Assembly (NCBI GenBank): GCA_025041175.1
Contig: JAKCFJ010000001.1
Span: 620,001-684,000 of the forward strand
Source: Halobacteriales archaeon YIM A00010
GTDB lineage: Archaea; Halobacteriota; Halobacteria; Halobacteriales; Haloarculaceae
DNA length: 64,000 nucleotides
Reading direction: 5' to 3'
The position numbers and the translations under genes were made by a program. The notes beneath the pieces are model-generated. The model did not search any database, was not told where the DNA came from, and worked only from the letters and a program-made list of their open reading frames with translations. Below are positions 33,514 to 63,335 of this stretch, piece by piece. The stretch's first letter is position 1. Each line of letters starts with the position of its first letter.

Positions 33514-34668
33514 ATGCGTACAGCAGAGTCAGAGGCTGTTATCGCCGAGATGGCCGGCGTGACAGTAGAAAAACGCTTCGAACCAGACGAGTTTCCGGTA
33601 CCGGCTATCGCTTTTACCATCAGCTCGAAGCGTGACGACCCCATCACGCTCCGCATGCACGATACGCTCCCTGACGAGGTAAACTCCGATCACATCGGGC
33701 TGCACCCGGAGTACGGCGGCGAATACTGGTCCGTCGAGGAGAACAGTGCCGTCTTCAAACGACCGTTCGACCCGAACGAGGAGTACGTGACCGTGTACGG
33801 CCTCCGACACATCTACGTGGACACCGCGGACCAGTTCCTCGTCGAGCCGGAGATCGAAATCCTCGATCCCGCAACGGATATCCTCGGGGAGAACAGCGGA
33901 CAACACGTCCGTGAGGTCATTGCGGGCGAGAGCGACGACGTTCGGGAACCCGAACCAGGGGGGGCCACGGGATCCCGCGGCAGTAGCGTCCGACCTGGTG
34001 GACGGGGAGAGCAGCCCCAGCCGGGGGCAACCGCCGCAGACAACGTTGCACAAGCGTTGGCTGAGGAGATCAGAAGCGGCACGGTCGACGAGCAGACGCT
34101 CGAAACGCTGCGCGAGAGCCTCGCGATCGAACGGAGACAGACGGAACGATCACAACGGGGGGGGAACGCGAAAAGCGATAGTAGTACGGACGCGCGCATC
34201 CGCCGTCTACAGGCGGATGTCGGCGATCTCCGCGCCTACACGGACGCCCTCGAAGGATTCCTCGATGAGAATGGGGAAGCACAGGTGATATTGTCTGACT
34301 TCAGACAAGAACTCGACGATCTCAGTCCGCGCGTCAATTCGCTCGAAACGCAGACGAACGAGATGTCGGAGGAGCTGTCGAACGCCATCGACGATTTCTC
34401 CGGGGACATCGGGGCGCTCTCCTCGGACGTGGACTCACTCACCGGCGAAATCGACTCGCTCAGCGACTACGTCGATTCTCTGTCCGACGATCTCGGCACG
34501 CTCGAATCGGATCTCGAGTCGGTTTCGTCGGACGTTTCCCGGCTGCAGTCGCGGGTCAGACGGCTCGACAACGACGCAGCGACCGAGGAGGATCTCGAAC
34601 GGATCCGGTCGGAGCTCGACAGCCTTGCGACATTCCGTCAACGTATGCAGTCGGTGTTCGATGGGTGA
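33514..34668 (+). CDS. b-domain plus coiled-coil protein, unknown function
   Basis: This 384-residue protein has two parts. Residues 1-120 form a b-rich domain (VTVEKRFEPDEFPVPAIAFT onwards) of a type common in haloarchaea. After a low-complexity glycine/proline linker comes a long heptad-rich region from about 185 to 384, with repeated DDLSPRVNSLE, VDSLTGEIDSL and LESDLESVSSDVSRLQ elements, clearly a coiled coil. It probably assembles into filaments or a scaffold. A TATA-like element at about 33479-33487 fits the start. Confidence 0.65.
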   Translation: MRTAESEAVIAEMAGVTVEKRFEPDEFPVPAIAFTISSKRDDPITLRMHDTLPDEVNSDHIGLHPEYGGEYWSVEENSAVFKRPFDPNEEYVTVYGLRHIYVDTADQFLVEPEIEILDPATDILGENSGQHVREVIAGESDDVREPEPGGATGSRGSSVRPGGRGEQPQPGATAADNVAQALAEEIRSGTVDEQTLETLRESLAIERRQTERSQRGGNAKSDSSTDARIRRLQADVGDLRAYTDALEGFLDENGEAQVILSDFRQELDDLSPRVNSLETQTNEMSEELSNAIDDFSGDIGALSSDVDSLTGEIDSLSDYVDSLSDDLGTLESDLESVSSDVSRLQSRVRRLDNDAATEEDLERIRSELDSLATFRQRMQSVFDG

Positions 34669-34862: not shown

Positions 34863-34884
34863 CGCGGAGAGTACACTCTCCGCG
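34863..34884. repeat. perfect 10-bp inverted repeat next to repeat copy A
   Basis: CGCGGAGAGT and ACTCTCCGCG are separated by two bases. The structure lies immediately upstream of repeat copy A (34890-34962). The gap 34669-34998 otherwise has no gene I can support, although 34730-34860 has weak coding character. Confidence 0.6.
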
Positions 34885-34889
34885 AGCAT

Positions 34890-34962
34890 AGCGAGCGGCT
34901 TTTTTTTGGTCCAGATTTTTTGCGCGAGGGGTGAGCTCTGCTCACCCGAGCGGAAAAAAGTG
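34890..34962 (+). repeat. modular hairpin repeat, copy A
   Basis: The order of parts is GCGAGCGGC, a T tract, GGTCCAG, a T6 tract, GCGCGAG, a stem-loop GGGTGAGC-TCT-GCTCACCC (34929-34947), then CGAGCGGAAAAAAG. The same order appears at 63194-63274 and, inverted, at 62406-62541. The T tracts in both directions could make it a bidirectional terminator between the coiled-coil gene and the PQQ-repeat gene. Confidence 0.8.
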
Positions 34963-34998
34963 GGAGTTAAACCGTTCCTACAGCAAAGGGGACGGTAG

Positions 34999-36204
34999 AT
35001 GCCCACCATCGATCAGCACACTCGACGTCGGGTTCTGGCAGTAGTTGGGAGCTGTGTTGGCGGCGCGCTTGCGGGGTGTGTGGGAGCCTCCGATCCGACC
35101 GCCAGTGACGCGGATCAGCCCACAGGCGACGAGTGGCCCACAGTCGGTTACGATCCCGCGAACACGCGGTACTCCTCGTCCGGAACGGTGCGGTCGACGC
35201 CCGGGGAGGCGTGGCGGGTCCAGATCGGCTCACCGATCGATCAACCCGTCGTCGCGGACGGGCAGGTGTACATCCCCGACAGCACCGCCCTTCGCGCCTA
35301 CGACGCGGTGACGGGCAATCCACAGTGGACGCACGCGAACGACACGGAGGACACCCAACTCCACACGGCACCGACAGTCCGTGACGGCGTCGTCTACGCC
35401 GGCATCACGGGGGGAGCGAAAAGCGTCATCGCGCTGGATGCGACCAGCGGCGAGCGGCTGTGGACGTTCGGCGGAACCGATGACGTGGCGGGGACGCCGG
35501 CGCTCAACGAAGCCGGCGACACGCTGTACGTCGGAACGAACGCGGAGCGCGTCATCGCGCTAGATGCGACCAGCGGTGAACCACGGTGGCAACAGGAGGT
35601 GTTCGGACCGATCACCACCAGTCTGGCCGTCCAGTCGCCGCTCGTCGTTGCCACCACCCGCCCCGGGGAAGTGTACGCGTTCAACGAGAGCGGCTCCAGT
35701 CTGTGGCGCCGGCGGCTACAGGAGGGCAGCGAGTCCCCGCCGGTGATTTCGGACCGAACGGTGTTCGTCGGAAGCACTGGCAACAACGTCTACAGCCTCG
35801 ATCCCGTCACTGGCCGCCGCCGCTGGAACACCTACGTCAACACGCTGTATCAGGACGGATTCGCCGTGCAAAACTCCTCGGTGTACGCCGTGACCGGCCG
35901 GAGTGTCTCCGTGCTCGGCGGATCCGAAGGCGAGATCCAGACGTCGATCGGTCTTGGAGAGCTGATCAGGTGTGCACCGATACTTCTCGACGACACGCTG
36001 TACGTCGGCGGGCGACAACTGTTTGCGCTCAAACCGTCGGGCGGTGTCGGGATCGGATCCCTCAAATTCGGCGCCACGCGCTGGTCGATCGATCCGGGAC
36101 GACACGTCGGCCCGGGAATCGCGGCGACCACCGAACGTCTGTTCGCCCCCACACAACTCGACGACGGCTCCCACAAACTGCTCGCACTCGAAGCCGACGC
36201 GTGA
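34999..36204 (+). CDS. PQQ-repeat b-propeller lipoprotein
   Basis: This 401-residue exported protein starts with a twin-arginine lipoprotein signal (HTRRRVLAVVGSCVGGALAG followed by the lipobox cysteine). The rest is a b-propeller built of PQQ/BamB-like blades, for example LYVGTNAERVIALDATSGEP and VYSLDPVTGRRRWNTYVNTL. There are about seven blades. Such haloarchaeal proteins are usually anchored on the outer face and may be scaffolds or enzymes; the PQQ-binding residues are not certain. It follows repeat copy A by 36 bases. Confidence 0.8.
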   Translation: MPTIDQHTRRRVLAVVGSCVGGALAGCVGASDPTASDADQPTGDEWPTVGYDPANTRYSSSGTVRSTPGEAWRVQIGSPIDQPVVADGQVYIPDSTALRAYDAVTGNPQWTHANDTEDTQLHTAPTVRDGVVYAGITGGAKSVIALDATSGERLWTFGGTDDVAGTPALNEAGDTLYVGTNAERVIALDATSGEPRWQQEVFGPITTSLAVQSPLVVATTRPGEVYAFNESGSSLWRRRLQEGSESPPVISDRTVFVGSTGNNVYSLDPVTGRRRWNTYVNTLYQDGFAVQNSSVYAVTGRSVSVLGGSEGEIQTSIGLGELIRCAPILLDDTLYVGGRQLFALKPSGGVGIGSLKFGATRWSIDPGRHVGPGIAATTERLFAPTQLDDGSHKLLALEADA

Positions 36205-43430: not shown

Positions 43431-44681
43431 ATGGCGATTCAGGTCACTCGCACCTACGTTGGTTCCATTCAGAACCACCGACAGGTCTGTGATGGCCTCG
43501 ATTCGCTCGGCGATTCTGCCTCGAAAATATGGAATGTCGCGCGCTGGACGGCGGGCCGCATCTGGGATGAGACTGGCAAGATTCCCGGTGAAGGCCCGCT
43601 GAAAGCGTACATGAAAAACCAAGTGTGCTGGAAAGACCTAAATGCACAATCCAGTCAGAAAGTCATCGAAGAACTTTCTGACGCTTTCCAGTCATGGTTC
43701 GACCTGCGACACAAGTACGACAAGGCGAATCCGCCCGGCTACCGCAAGCACGGCGACACTCGACCACGTTCGACGGTCACATTCAAAGCAGACGGCTTCA
43801 AGCACGATCCCAAGAACAACCGCGTCCGACTCTCGAAAGGCTCGAACTTCAAAGAACACTTCTCAGACTTCATCCTCTGTGAGTATCAGACGCGCCCGGA
43901 CGTTTCCCTCTCGGACGCCACTACGGTGCAAAACGTTCGAGCCGTCTGGACTGGTGGAGAGTGGGAACTTCATTTCGTCTGTAAAGTCGAAATAGAACCC
44001 AACGACGCAGCAGGCGACGGAGTCGCAGGCATCGACCTCGGCATCACAAACATCGCCACAGTCGCGTTTCCCGATGAATATGTCCTATACCCCGGCAACT
44101 CGCTTAAACAGGACAAGCACTACTTCAAACGCGCAGAGTACGATACCGAAGGTGAGAACGGCCCGTCCGAGAGGTCCATGTGGGCACGTCGGAAACGTAG
44201 TGAACGTGAAACCCATTTCTACCACGTTCTCACCGACGCCATCATCACCGAGTGTGTTGAACGGAACGTTGGCACGCTCGCAGTCAGTTGGCCCGAAAAC
44301 GTTCGGGAATCTGACTGGGGCAACACTGGCAACAAGAAACTCCATACGTGGGCGTTCGACCGTATCACCCAGTACCTCAGCTACAAAGGCGAAGAACGGG
44401 GCGTCGAGGTACGCAAAGAAAACGAGTGGAATACGAGCAAGACGTGTTCACAGTGTGGTGATAATACAAAATCAAACCGCAAGCACCGTGGTTTGTACGT
44501 GTGTTCGTCGTGTGAGTTGGTCGGAAATGCGGATTGCAACGGAGCAGAGAATATGCGCCAAAAGATAACTCCGAGTCCTCACGGTGAGGATAGGAGTAAC
44601 GGCTGTGTGGCTCAGCCATCGACATACTTGTTCGACCGCGAGAGCGGGACGTTCAAATCGAGAGAACAGGTTGTGTTGTAG
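43431..44681 (+). CDS. tnpB: TnpB RNA-guided nuclease (IS605 OrfB family)
   Basis: This is a 416-residue protein. The RuvC-like site is complete: Asp202 in AGIDLGITNIATV, Glu289 in LAVSWPENVR and Asp368 in GNADCNGAENM. The zinc ribbon CSQCGDN and CSSCEL lies between the last two. The N-terminal helix-turn-helix region (VTRTYVGSIQNHRQVCDGLD) is intact and no stop interrupts it. TnpB proteins use an RNA from the element's right end to cut DNA next to a short motif, which favours retention of the element. It looks functional. Confidence 0.92.
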   Translation: MAIQVTRTYVGSIQNHRQVCDGLDSLGDSASKIWNVARWTAGRIWDETGKIPGEGPLKAYMKNQVCWKDLNAQSSQKVIEELSDAFQSWFDLRHKYDKANPPGYRKHGDTRPRSTVTFKADGFKHDPKNNRVRLSKGSNFKEHFSDFILCEYQTRPDVSLSDATTVQNVRAVWTGGEWELHFVCKVEIEPNDAAGDGVAGIDLGITNIATVAFPDEYVLYPGNSLKQDKHYFKRAEYDTEGENGPSERSMWARRKRSERETHFYHVLTDAIITECVERNVGTLAVSWPENVRESDWGNTGNKKLHTWAFDRITQYLSYKGEERGVEVRKENEWNTSKTCSQCGDNTKSNRKHRGLYVCSSCELVGNADCNGAENMRQKITPSPHGEDRSNGCVAQPSTYLFDRESGTFKSREQVVL

Positions 44682-44743
44682 ACCAGCAAATATCCCACCT
44701 GCGGTACGGGAAGCCTCGTCGTTTACGGCGAGGAGGATGTCAC
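44682..44743 (+). ncRNA. probable 3' part of the tnpB guide RNA (omega RNA) and right end
   Basis: In IS605-type elements the guide RNA covers the end of tnpB and the right end, and its guide is taken from the sequence just outside. Here the scaffold would end with the hairpin CCTCGTCG-TTTA-CGGCGAGG (44714-44733, one wobble) and ATGTCAC. The guide would begin at 44744, inside the 3' half of the split host gene. The 5' end of the RNA cannot be placed from sequence. Confidence 0.45.
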
Positions 44744-57424: not shown

Positions 57425-58549
57425 ATGGAGCTGACCACCGAGCAGCAGGCCATCCGCGATCTCGTCCACGAGTTCGCTGTCGAGGAGATCCGGCCGCTCG
57501 CGCGCGAGGCCGACGAAGCCGAACAGTTTCCCGAATCGGTGTGGGACGGACTCGCGGAGCTGGATCTGACCGGGATGACGGTGCCCGAGGAGTACGGGGG
57601 GATCGATGCCGATCCGGTCACCTACAGCATCGTCAACGAACAGCTCGCGTACGGAACGTTGGCGGTGGCGACCGCGTTCTCGGTGCACTGTCTGGCTACC
57701 TCCTGTATTGCGTCCTTTGGCACAGAGGATCAGAAAGAGCGGTGGCTGCCCGACATGGTGGCAGGCCGTCCGGTGGGTGCGTTCGCGCTGTCGGAGACGG
57801 GTGCGGGATCGAACCCCGCCCAGATGCAGACGACCGCCGAACGGGATGGAGACAGTTATATTATCAACGGCGACAAGCAGTGGATCACCAACGGGGAGCG
57901 CGCCGGCGTGATCGTCCTCTTTGCCAAAACCGGCCCGGAGGAGATCACCCAGTTCGTCGTCCCGAAGGACGCGGACGGGCTTTCGGTCGGTCCCAAAGAG
58001 GACAAGCTCGGCCTGCGGGCGAGCGATACGACGCCGCTCACCTTTGACGATGTTCGGGTTCCCGCCGAGAACCGGCTCACACCCGAGGGCGAGGGGCTGA
58101 GCGCGGCGCTGTCGATTCTGACCGGTGGACGGGTCGCAATCGCCTCCCAGGCGGTGGGTCTCGCCCAATCGGCACTCGACGCGGCGCTCGACTACGTCAC
58201 GGAACGCGAACAGTTCGGCGGACCGATCAGCGATATACAGGCGGTTCGTCATACCCTCGCGGAGATGCACGCGAAAACCGAATCCGGGCGGTTGCTCGCG
58301 CGCGAGGCAGCCCGGAAACGCGACGCCGACGCGCCGGACAGCCCGATGGCGGCCAGCACGGCGAAATACGTCGCCAGCGAGAACGCGATGGACGTGACCA
58401 ACGACGCCGTCCAGCTCCACGGCGGCTACGGCTACACGGCCGATTTCCCGGTCGAACGGCTGTACCGCGACGCGAAGATCACCACCATCTACGAGGGTAC
58501 CACGCAGATCCAAAAGACGGTCATCGCGCGCGAACTGCTCAACCAGTGA
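57425..58549 (+). CDS. acyl-CoA dehydrogenase
   Basis: This FAD flavoenzyme of 374 residues has LSETGAGSNPAQMQTTAERD (the family substrate/FAD signature), QWITNGERAGVIVLFAKTG, and QLHGGYGYTADFPVERLYRD followed by AKITTIYEGTTQIQ, where the catalytic glutamate lies in YEGT. This is the short/medium-chain type. It acts in fatty- or branched-acid oxidation; the chain length is not predictable. Confidence 0.93.
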   Translation: MELTTEQQAIRDLVHEFAVEEIRPLAREADEAEQFPESVWDGLAELDLTGMTVPEEYGGIDADPVTYSIVNEQLAYGTLAVATAFSVHCLATSCIASFGTEDQKERWLPDMVAGRPVGAFALSETGAGSNPAQMQTTAERDGDSYIINGDKQWITNGERAGVIVLFAKTGPEEITQFVVPKDADGLSVGPKEDKLGLRASDTTPLTFDDVRVPAENRLTPEGEGLSAALSILTGGRVAIASQAVGLAQSALDAALDYVTEREQFGGPISDIQAVRHTLAEMHAKTESGRLLAREAARKRDADAPDSPMAASTAKYVASENAMDVTNDAVQLHGGYGYTADFPVERLYRDAKITTIYEGTTQIQKTVIARELLNQ

Positions 58550-61766: not shown

Positions 61767-62172
61767 ATTGTAGGAATCGAAATGTTGATTGATATAACTG
61801 CTGATACTAATCCGACATAATAATGGTAAATTGGTAGCTGTGGATTTATCACCATCGGCAGGATATGTTTTTCGTAGAGATATTGTGGGTTGTGAAATAC
61901 AATGCTGCATAAAGATATGTTCCGAACTCCTGACCGTGGTGGAGCGGGAAGCCGAGGACGATCGATTCGAACGCAGTCAACCATGACTGCCAAACTGAAT
62001 TTCCCGATGACACTATTCCAGTCACAGTACGGAACCGAACCCGGAGATCCGGTTCCGATCGGTGAATGAACGCCTGTGCAATAGTTGTTAGTGAAATGTA
62101 ACGCATCTAGTTCCATCAGTACCTTTATACGTGATGGGGTAACGAAGAACAAATGAGAACGCCAGTAGCGCC
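61767..62172. other. AT-richer gap with weak coding remnants
   Basis: The gap upstream of the ABC operon holds the permease promoter and then about 350 bases with lower GC. A minus-strand frame at 61849-62106 (beginning MRYISLTTIAQAFIHRSEPD) is basic and aromatic, unlike native genes, and may be a relic of foreign DNA. No terminal repeats were found. Confidence 0.3.
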
Positions 62173-62400
62173 ATGAGGGCGTGTGCGTTCGTATTGAACG
62201 CGCCGGGTGCAGGTACCACCCGACGCTGGGGTTCTCAAGCGACAAGAACACCCATGCTTGGGGATGAATCAGAGACATGTAACGGTGTCGCATCGTATCG
62301 AGAAAGTGATCAGAGAACGCGCTGTCCGGTGTGCGGTCGGCCGGTTCGCACGCGTCTCGACCACCGGATGGGATGTCCGTTGGGGCGGTGGTGGCGATGA
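62173..62400 (+). CDS. possible small CCHC zinc-finger protein
   Basis: The 75-residue frame ends RCPVCGRPVRTRLDHRMGCP, a C-x2-C-x9-H-x3-C pattern that could bind zinc, followed by LGRWWR and a stop. The N-terminal half (APGAGTTRRWGSQATRTPML) is unstructured and glycine/threonine-rich. The start is uncertain. It could instead be the relic tail of a larger gene or transposon. It ends just before repeat copy C. Confidence 0.3.
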   Translation: MRACAFVLNAPGAGTTRRWGSQATRTPMLGDESETCNGVASYRESDQRTRCPVCGRPVRTRLDHRMGCPLGRWWR

Positions 62401-62405
62401 CACTC

Positions 62406-62541
62406 CACCTTTTTTCCGCTCGGGTGGCCGGAGGCCACCCTCGCGCAAAAAATCTGCATTGCAAGAGCTTCGCTCTTGCAGGCTCCCAGATGGACGAAGT
62501 CCATCTGAGAGGACCAAAAAAGGCCGCTCGCTACGCTCGCG
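62406..62541 (-). repeat. modular hairpin repeat, copy C (inverted, with two extra hairpins)
   Basis: Read on the minus strand it has the same parts as copies A and B: GCGAGCG, GGCCTTTTTTGGTCC, AGATTTTTTGCGCGAG, a stem-loop (62422-62440, stem GGGTGGCC) and CGAGCGGAAAAAAGG. Between GGTCC and AGATTTTTT it carries two further perfect 9-bp stem-loops with 3-base loops, 62460-62480 and 62487-62507. The stem differs from A and B by a compensatory A-T to G-C change. Confidence 0.8.
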
Positions 62542-62552
62542 GAGGGGCAGGA

Positions 62553-63110
62553 ATGACGCTGCCGTTGTTCCAGTTCCGGAATCAGCAGGGGGAGGTCGTG
62601 AACCTCTCGGCCGCCACGGATCGGGCGGAGATCGTGACGGCGGAGCTATACCACAGCATCGATGTCGGGGAAGGATTATGGTGCAGACCCTGCCAGTCGA
62701 CGGGTTGCGCGCATGCCACCCAGATCGAGCAGATACTGGCGACGGCGGGGCTTGGCAGGACCCGAACGGGCGGCTACGACGAATTGCCCGGCATCGCGCG
62801 GTTCACGCGCTATGTCGCCACCGGCGAGATGGTGATCGAATGTTGGTTCGACAACGGCGCGTGCGTGCGCTTTCACGAACAGCGCGATGGCACGGTTGTG
62901 CAGTCGGTGTTCACACCCGACGACTCGCGCGAACCGGCCGAGATGACCGAGAAACCGGATGCAGAGAACGCGCCCGCCTGTCTGGTCGACACGTTGGTGA
63001 CCTACTGCCAGTACCGACAGCGCGGCGATCTCGCTGGCTTACGGCAGCGCTACCCCGAACTGGCGCGCGTCGTCGGTGCGGCTGCCGCTGCATCTATCGC
63101 TGACGACTGA
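62553..63110 (+). CDS. unknown protein framed by inverted repeat copies
   Basis: This 185-residue protein starts MTLPLFQFRNQQGEVVNLSA. A cysteine/histidine cluster CRPCQSTGCAH near residue 45 could bind zinc and distantly recalls SWIM-type fingers. The middle is b-rich (FTRYVATGEMVIECWFDNGA), and the C-terminus has CLVDTLVTYCQYRQRGDLAG. It starts 12 bases after repeat copy C and ends 84 bases before copy B. It is less acidic than its neighbours. I recognise no family. Confidence 0.6.
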   Translation: MTLPLFQFRNQQGEVVNLSAATDRAEIVTAELYHSIDVGEGLWCRPCQSTGCAHATQIEQILATAGLGRTRTGGYDELPGIARFTRYVATGEMVIECWFDNGACVRFHEQRDGTVVQSVFTPDDSREPAEMTEKPDAENAPACLVDTLVTYCQYRQRGDLAGLRQRYPELARVVGAAAAASIADD

Positions 63111-63193
63111 CGGGGGCGGTAGCAGTGTGGTGGCGGAGCGGTTAGCGGAGGCGGAGCAGTGCGGGGAGTACACCTACCGCGAGCGCAGCTCCT

Positions 63194-63274
63194 GCGAGCG
63201 TAGCGAGCGGCCTTTTTTGGTCCAGATTTTTTGCGCGAGGGTGAGCGAAGCTCACCCGAGCGGAAAAAAGGTGG
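63194..63274 (+). repeat. modular hairpin repeat, copy B
   Basis: The parts are GCGAGCGTAGCGAGCGGCC, a T6 tract, GGTCCAG, a second T6 tract, GCGCGAG, stem-loop GGGTGAGC-GAA-GCTCACCC (63239-63257), then CGAGCGGAAAAAAGGTGG. It is nearly identical to copy A and inverted relative to copy C. It separates the unknown gene from the HAD hydrolase gene. Confidence 0.8.
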
Positions 63275-63335
63275 CGGACCAAAAAGGTGGGGTGGCATCG
63301 AGAGGTCTATCTACCGGCGGGACCGGAGCTATGGT

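Follow-up and report, generated by a model that had tools for sequence, protein, structure and literature searches.

A dispersed hairpin repeat of haloarchaea, a probable miniature mobile element and bidirectional terminator

Three element copies and a two-gene cassette in the window

The window, a stretch of 64,000 nt from a Halocatena genome (the source genome), carries three copies of a hairpin element, A, B and C, two of them beside a pair of small open reading frames, ORF1 and ORF2 (Table 1). The original prediction had placed these copies at 34890-34962, 63194-63274 and, inverted, 62406-62541, and all three are present with their parts in the order claimed. The window has exactly three occurrences of the string TTTTTTGCGCGAG and three of CGAGCGGAAAAAAG, all of them within the copies, and a covariance model returned exactly three strong matches, at 34907-34965 (+, 74 bits) for copy A, 63218-63275 (+, 83 bits) for copy B and 62404-62461 (-, 79 bits) for copy C. 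A weak match at 58037 (18 bits) has neither T nor A runs and was rejected as a real copy. The stems described earlier (GGGTGAGC/GCTCACCC in copies A and B, GGGTGGCC/GGCCACCC in copy C) and the loops TCT, GAA and TCC are correct in the sequence, and the two additional perfect 9-bp hairpins of copy C were verified.

Table 1. Element copies and cassette genes in the window (positions are those of the window)
Feature	Position	Strand	Description
ORF1	62254..62400	+	48 aa, CPVCG zinc-ribbon-like (tblastn across copies; sequence)
ORF2	62553..63110	+	185 aa
Copy A	34880..34965	+	H1 hairpin CCGCGAGCATAGCGAGCGGC, T8, GGTCCAGA, T6, main hairpin with tandem G.A, A6, GTGGG
Copy B	63190..63296	+	H1, T6, GGTCCAGA, T6, main hairpin, A6 GGTGG, then GCGGACC-A5-GGTGG
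Copy C	62405..62542	-	Inverted; two extra 9-bp hairpins between GGTCC and AGA
Extra hairpin 1 of copy C	62460..62480	.	Perfect, TGCAAGAGC-TTC-GCTCTTGCA
Extra hairpin 2 of copy C	62487..62507	.	Perfect, CAGATGGAC-GAA-GTCCATCTG

Copy A lies between the end, at 34668, of a gene for a 384-aa protein and the start, at 34999, of another gene. The locus is syntenic in three congeneric genomes, with no model match between the same neighbours; the spacers of these congeners do not align with those of copy A, so that the comparison gives an absence and no clean empty site. Copy B follows ORF2 and precedes a HAD-like gene. Its outer GGTCC forms a pairing with a GGACC that lies downstream, near 63279 (z = -4.8 as DNA and -4.4 as RNA), the GCGGACC-A5-GGTGG that follows its GGTGG pairs back to the linker, and the resulting fold, one long imperfect hairpin, beats 200 of 200 shuffles as DNA or as RNA. 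Two congeners have copies with a downstream flank similar to that of copy B. No flanking duplication above control was detected at copies A and B.

Copy C interrupts the junction of ORF1 and ORF2, with ATGACACT (62397-62404) and ATGACGCT (62553-62560) at its two sides. Uninterrupted paralogues of the gene pair have one overlapping TGATG at this point; copy C splits it, leaving ATGACxCT on each side and both genes intact. Judged by these flanks, copy C fits, on a small scale, what a target-duplicating insertion would leave. The same junction also holds an element at C1:2726476 and in the congeneric genome G003.

The cassette consists of a promoter-like stretch, a structured leader, ORF1 and ORF2, and its approximately 31 copies in the source genome are 74-100% identical. 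In it, ORF1 overlaps ORF2, whose product has a SWIM-like C-x2-C-x4-C-x-H motif. About 20-40 copies are present in five species and a single copy in two, the hairpin-free genomes G002 and G006 having one ORF2 copy each; copies are most alike within a species. Homologue searches found ORF2 in Halocatena only. It matched no family in Pfam, NCBIfam or PADLOC, its structure model (mean pLDDT 70.8) gave no fold match at E below 0.001, and no viral relative was found. On the family and fold searches, ORF2 was rejected as a known transposase.

Approximately half of the element copies of the source genome flank the cassette. Inverted pairs 1.2-1.5 kb apart were considered as the two ends of one transposon, and this was abandoned as an account of the element in general, which is present across the order without the cassette. 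Since the range of the hairpin is wider than that of the cassette, the latter is more likely to be a passenger or partner of the hairpin than its source.

Several other features of the cassette were observed. Throughout the genus, ORF1 of the cassette copies is preceded by the leader, a structured stretch of about 95 nt (62151-62258 in the window) with a long outer stem that varies (GAGAAC/GTTCTC, GAGGAC/GTCCTC and GAGAGC/GCTCTC). It further contains an inner GCGCGTTC hairpin and another, CGGGTG-CACCCG, whose loop varies greatly. A GGGTTCTC/GAGAACCC pairing at the start codon is a possible competitor of the leader. Some ORF2 copies from two species (C1:23282, 930941, 1735261, 2058831 and 2632797, and about five in G005) have in common a break, with a short repeat and a stop, at residues ~43-53. 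Low-complexity hexamers of the GCGGTnGCGGAGGCGG type stand between ORF2 and the hairpins in many Halocatena copies, for example at 63110-63170 in the window.

Layout, structure and covariation of the element

The element measures approximately 90-110 nt and is laid out as a hairpin, a T run, GGTCCAGA or CGCCCACG, a second T run, an imperfect hairpin, an A run and GGTGG. The linker between the two T runs is 8 nt long; the second (main) hairpin is long and imperfect, often with a one-base bulge, and midway along its stem a tandem G.A mismatch is conserved. This stem is longer than first described, and comprises T6:A6, NCGN:NCGN, the tandem G.A mismatch and an inner stem closed by a loop of three bases. 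About three-quarters of 86 distinct cores have a loop that reads GNA on one strand, or TNC, which is GNA on the opposite strand.

The claim that the stem covaries and is under selection for structure had been drawn from the three window copies, which alone are weak evidence of covariation; it was upheld by tests on 59 and on 40 copies. In the first alignment (57 copies from the genus Halocatena and two from other genera), 94.9% of cells are paired in the named structure, with 87 double-changed cells against 24.5 in shuffles (0 of 500 shuffles as high) and a covariation of 0.213 against 0.084. These sequences were not selected blind to the structure; controls slid along the sequence drop to 40-65% paired. 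The 40 copies from other genera gave 95.1% paired, 89 double-changed cells against 28.7 (again 0 of 500 shuffles as high) and a covariation of 0.299 against 0.084. The neighbouring pairs covary while both G.A positions remain mismatched. Covariation between the arms of a palindrome can also be explained by template-switch correction during replication, and by itself does not prove selection on an RNA; the conserved G.A mismatches and the bulge, which have not been corrected, argue for structural selection and against template switching as the whole story.

The structure might act as RNA in the 3' untranslated regions of mRNAs, for example as a stabiliser or a protein-binding site, with termination secondary, and the strong RNA folding, the tandem G.A pairs and the covariation would suit such a role. 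The first T run, however, precedes the main hairpin, so that a transcript ending there would exclude it; the element also occurs in either orientation and shortly ahead of promoters, and it has no Rfam family. We regard an RNA role of this kind as improbable.

The element is modular, as had been proposed: its linker comes in a few types, and the two-hairpin insert of copy C is present in 9 of 102 copies. Among the 40 copies from other genera, one linker/right-end pair is altered on both sides in two copies. A few copies (L195, L231 and L184) combine a GGTGCAGA linker with a GGTGC right end where others have GGTCCAGA with GGTGG, and linker and right end may here have changed in compensation for each other. 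At another locus (L214), two elements have unrelated stems although the duplicates that flank them are about 95% identical; the hairpin core thus turns over fast, which makes kinship among copies hard to trace.

Copy number, range and insertion sites

A search with copy B gave 47 matches in the source genome, corresponding to about 40 distinct copies, and a pattern scan of regions taken from that genome gave 43; these numbers exclude chance or a repeat confined to the three window copies. Four of the six Halocatena congeners have 14-37 matches and the other two (G002 and G006) have zero. The search of haloarchaeal genomes by covariance model, which had been suggested as a check, revealed a family far larger than three copies: with the calibrated model at E up to 1e-4, matches were found in 199 of 243 sampled genomes of the order and in 66 of 77 genera. 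No more than 22 candidates were scored in any one genome, so that the counts per genome are capped, and generic T-hairpin-A sites could add to the weak end of the matches. Nearly all the strong matches examined have the full layout, with TTTTTGGTCCAGATTTTT or TTTTTCGCCCACGTTTTT before the hairpin and GGTGG after it.

Outside the genus, the 3' end of the upstream gene, 21-140 nt of it, recurs right after GGTGG in 22 of 48 copies, at loci that are partly orthologous and represent approximately 16 different genes. The duplicates begin -1 to +5 nt from the end of the model. Of 960 decoy positions placed in these loci, 7 had a repeat, and no decoy scored above 40 (Fisher p = 4e-26); of 240 cross-locus control pairs, 1 had a repeat. 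The repeated stretch is usually the C-terminal codons of the upstream gene together with its stop. More than half of the copies are without such a duplication. Four Halocatena copies also have one, and one of these repeats the 5' end of a purD-like gene (the names purD-like, recJ-like and gyrA rest on recognition by eye from protein ends).

Empty sites were identified at two genes. At the recJ-like gene, the six sister genomes checked are empty, with a single copy of the 91-99-nt stretch and no element, while three genomes have copy, element and copy with an identical right junction. At gyrA, three sister genomes are empty and four are filled. The inserted stretch in these comparisons is about 90-100 nt. 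The single gene end without an element in sister species indicates that the element was inserted with unusually long target duplications, and the empty sites at the two genes settle the direction of change as insertion. The view of a mobile or amplified element is therefore upheld by its copy number, by the duplications at its insertion points and by the empty sites of sister species. At several junctions, judged by eye, the downstream copy carries one or two additional bases at a distance of three or four bases from its start. At one locus (L216, G116:C2:2825420-2825842), gene end and element stand three times in tandem, 182 nt apart, behind one gene.

The differences between duplicates fall at codon positions 1, 2 and 3 in 14, 6 and 70 cases (70 of 90 at the third position), with one gap, where about 1:1:2 is expected if the stranded copy decays freely. 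Simple duplication followed by free decay would not predict this third-position excess, which could come from allele exchange between species, from conversion between the duplicates or from an insertion that imports a foreign gene end. In G240 the two duplicates are near-identical, which suggests conversion between them.

These sites also bear on the reading of the copies as fixed, non-mobile haloarchaeal bidirectional terminators, copied by tandem duplication of gene ends and gene conversion, with a structure under selection for termination. Placement behind stop codons, tandem arrays such as the three copies 182 nt apart in G116, the near-identical duplicates within G240, which point to conversion, and the termination at T stretches reported for Haloferax (PMC7237163) all agree with fixed terminators. 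Tandem duplication sits poorly with the majority of the duplicated sites, which have the element only between the gene-end copies and none after the second, and with the empty sites, which have one gene-end copy and no element; moreover, an inverted element interrupts the ORF1/ORF2 junction, and at the purD-like gene it is the 5' end that is duplicated. We consider fixed terminators unlikely, if the least so of the alternatives weighed here.

Placement, known systems and a proposed explanation

Copies follow stop codons immediately or precede core promoters by a short distance; the gene calls used for placement come from a simple codon-based finder, and single starts may be off. In Halocatena, the stop of a convergent downstream neighbour is mostly 0-22 nt past the right end of the element and a codirectional downstream neighbour often starts 39-48 nt past it, a gap that, by analogy with leaderless haloarchaeal genes, would leave room for one core promoter. 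Outside the genus, the upstream gene is oriented toward the element in 40 of 50 copies (p = 2e-5), and a codirectional upstream stop is often 20-60 nt before it. A T stretch just behind a stop codon is a feature of archaeal intrinsic terminators, and the T runs of the element face a polymerase coming from either side. This placement closely fits bidirectional termination or insulation. T stretches are the main intergenic terminators of Haloferax volcanii, as confirmed in vivo (PMC7237163); by that analogy the element probably terminates transcription in both directions. Likewise, the Haloferax terminators described there have T5-T7 shortly behind stops, as the element has behind a hairpin that precedes its first T run. 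Unlike them, the T stretches of the element belong to a conserved, dispersed and spreading unit that has a fixed right end and, besides the first hairpin, another that covaries.

With the bacterial REP/BIME sequences and their RAYT transposases, the element has in common intergenic, imperfect and mismatched hairpins in tens of copies, placement at gene ends, arrays and modular composites. REP/BIME flank a cognate RAYT gene; no RAYT-like partner was tied to the element, and the ORF1-ORF2 pair that it flanks matches no Pfam transposase family. To our knowledge, gene-end duplications and a T-hairpin-A layout are not hallmarks of REP. MITEs make short target duplications of one constant length and have the terminal repeats of a parent transposon; the element differs in its duplications, which range over 21-140 nt. 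In E. coli, integration of e14 replaces the end of icd and displaces the old 3' end beyond the insert, with mostly synonymous differences. Genes hit by the element similarly keep a functional 3' end, with the old one displaced and mostly synonymous differences; unlike e14, the element is about 100 nt long and non-coding, and it hits many unrelated genes.

A further comparison is with the PATEs and small mobile repeats (SMR-A) of Haloquadratum walsbyi, which are likewise short, non-coding, palindrome-based elements of high copy number that insert into other repeats and have no transposase of their own, SMR-A also being about 110 bp (PMC3119063). Like elements of the PATE/IS605 type, the element has near-terminal palindromes, its two hairpins lying within about 100 nt, a length that could not encode a transposase. 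SMRs are about 80-110 bp long, with inverted terminal repeats unrelated to known transposons; the element has one imperfect palindrome, not clean terminal repeats, in an inserted stretch of about 90-100 nt. PATEs, SMR-A and IS605-type elements are reported there to lack target duplications, and this feature is contradicted by the direct repeats at 22 of 48 copies and by the empty sites; the element further differs from PATEs and SMR-A in its 21-140-nt duplications, its GGTGG right end, its flanking T and A runs and its order-wide range.

The likeness leaves room for a relic or a non-autonomous derivative of IS200/IS605 (PATE- or REP-like), moved by a Y1 transposase that recognises mismatched, bulged hairpins. 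Subterminal imperfect hairpins, a conserved bulge and a high copy number are in keeping with such an origin, precedents in haloarchaea exist (PMC3119063), and Y1 transposases are present in four of the five element-bearing Halocatena genomes (G000, G003, G004 and G005) and in neither of the two element-free ones (G002 and G006). The fifth, G001, has the element, and no Y1 gene was detected in its assembly, which is about 94% complete; the long duplications, moreover, do not match the absence of duplications in PATEs and IS605-type elements given in the same source. Descent from IS200/IS605 is thus given a low probability. Y1 genes were listed across the Halocatena genomes, and no transposase was tied to the element.

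Several other explanations were rejected. A known RNA family was rejected on the Rfam searches: the window element has no Rfam match at gathering scores, and 17 other loci have none at E up to 0.5. Five exact-motif matches in viral contigs were rejected as a sign of viral origin, the two inspected being AT-rich chance matches without the hairpin, and a plasmid-borne origin was rejected, with only one 29-nt match. Literature searches on the literal linker and right-end strings returned no relevant paper, and the layout does not appear in the portions consulted of the REP survey, PMC3119063 and PMC7237163. The original prediction had named no family, and none was found in Rfam or in the literature searched; the element family is apparently undescribed in what could be searched. 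The defining duplication features of PATEs, SMRs and MITEs were compared and not found, so we do not class the element with any of them; in its behaviour it resembles a REP or MITE crossed with a terminator. Elsewhere in the window, an Rfam match to sot0042 (sense overlapping transcript) was observed at 44563-44734 (+, 91 bits).

Our preferred explanation, to which we give a probability of about 0.6, is a miniature mobile element of haloarchaea, of approximately 90-110 nt, that doubles as a bidirectional terminator. RNA polymerase arriving from the left would stop at the two T runs; for polymerase arriving from the right, the stop would be the complementary T run immediately internal to CCACC. 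The duplication would preserve one intact copy of the gene and the insertion would add a stop signal, and for these reasons insertions behind genes would be tolerated and kept. In Halocatena, the element has spread together with the amplified two-gene cassette that it flanks.

A more specific form of the mobile-element reading is possible, if somewhat doubtful: a portable gene-ending element, in which about 100 nt of non-coding DNA enters at or near a stop codon and duplicates 20-140 nt, which would leave the gene with an entire 3' end and a strong two-way terminator and strand its former 3' end beyond. The long, variable duplications do not match the miniature elements compared here, and make the insertion mechanism directly testable in a genetically tractable group. 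If the gene-ending reading is true, these duplications and the coding-type divergence between the copies would point to a mechanism of insertion or allele exchange that is undescribed for miniature elements. If the proposed mobile terminator is real, it would explain the origin of many bidirectional terminators and provide a compact, portable terminator for haloarchaeal genetics, and a large share of haloarchaeal gene ends would have been set by a spreading element, not by evolution site by site.
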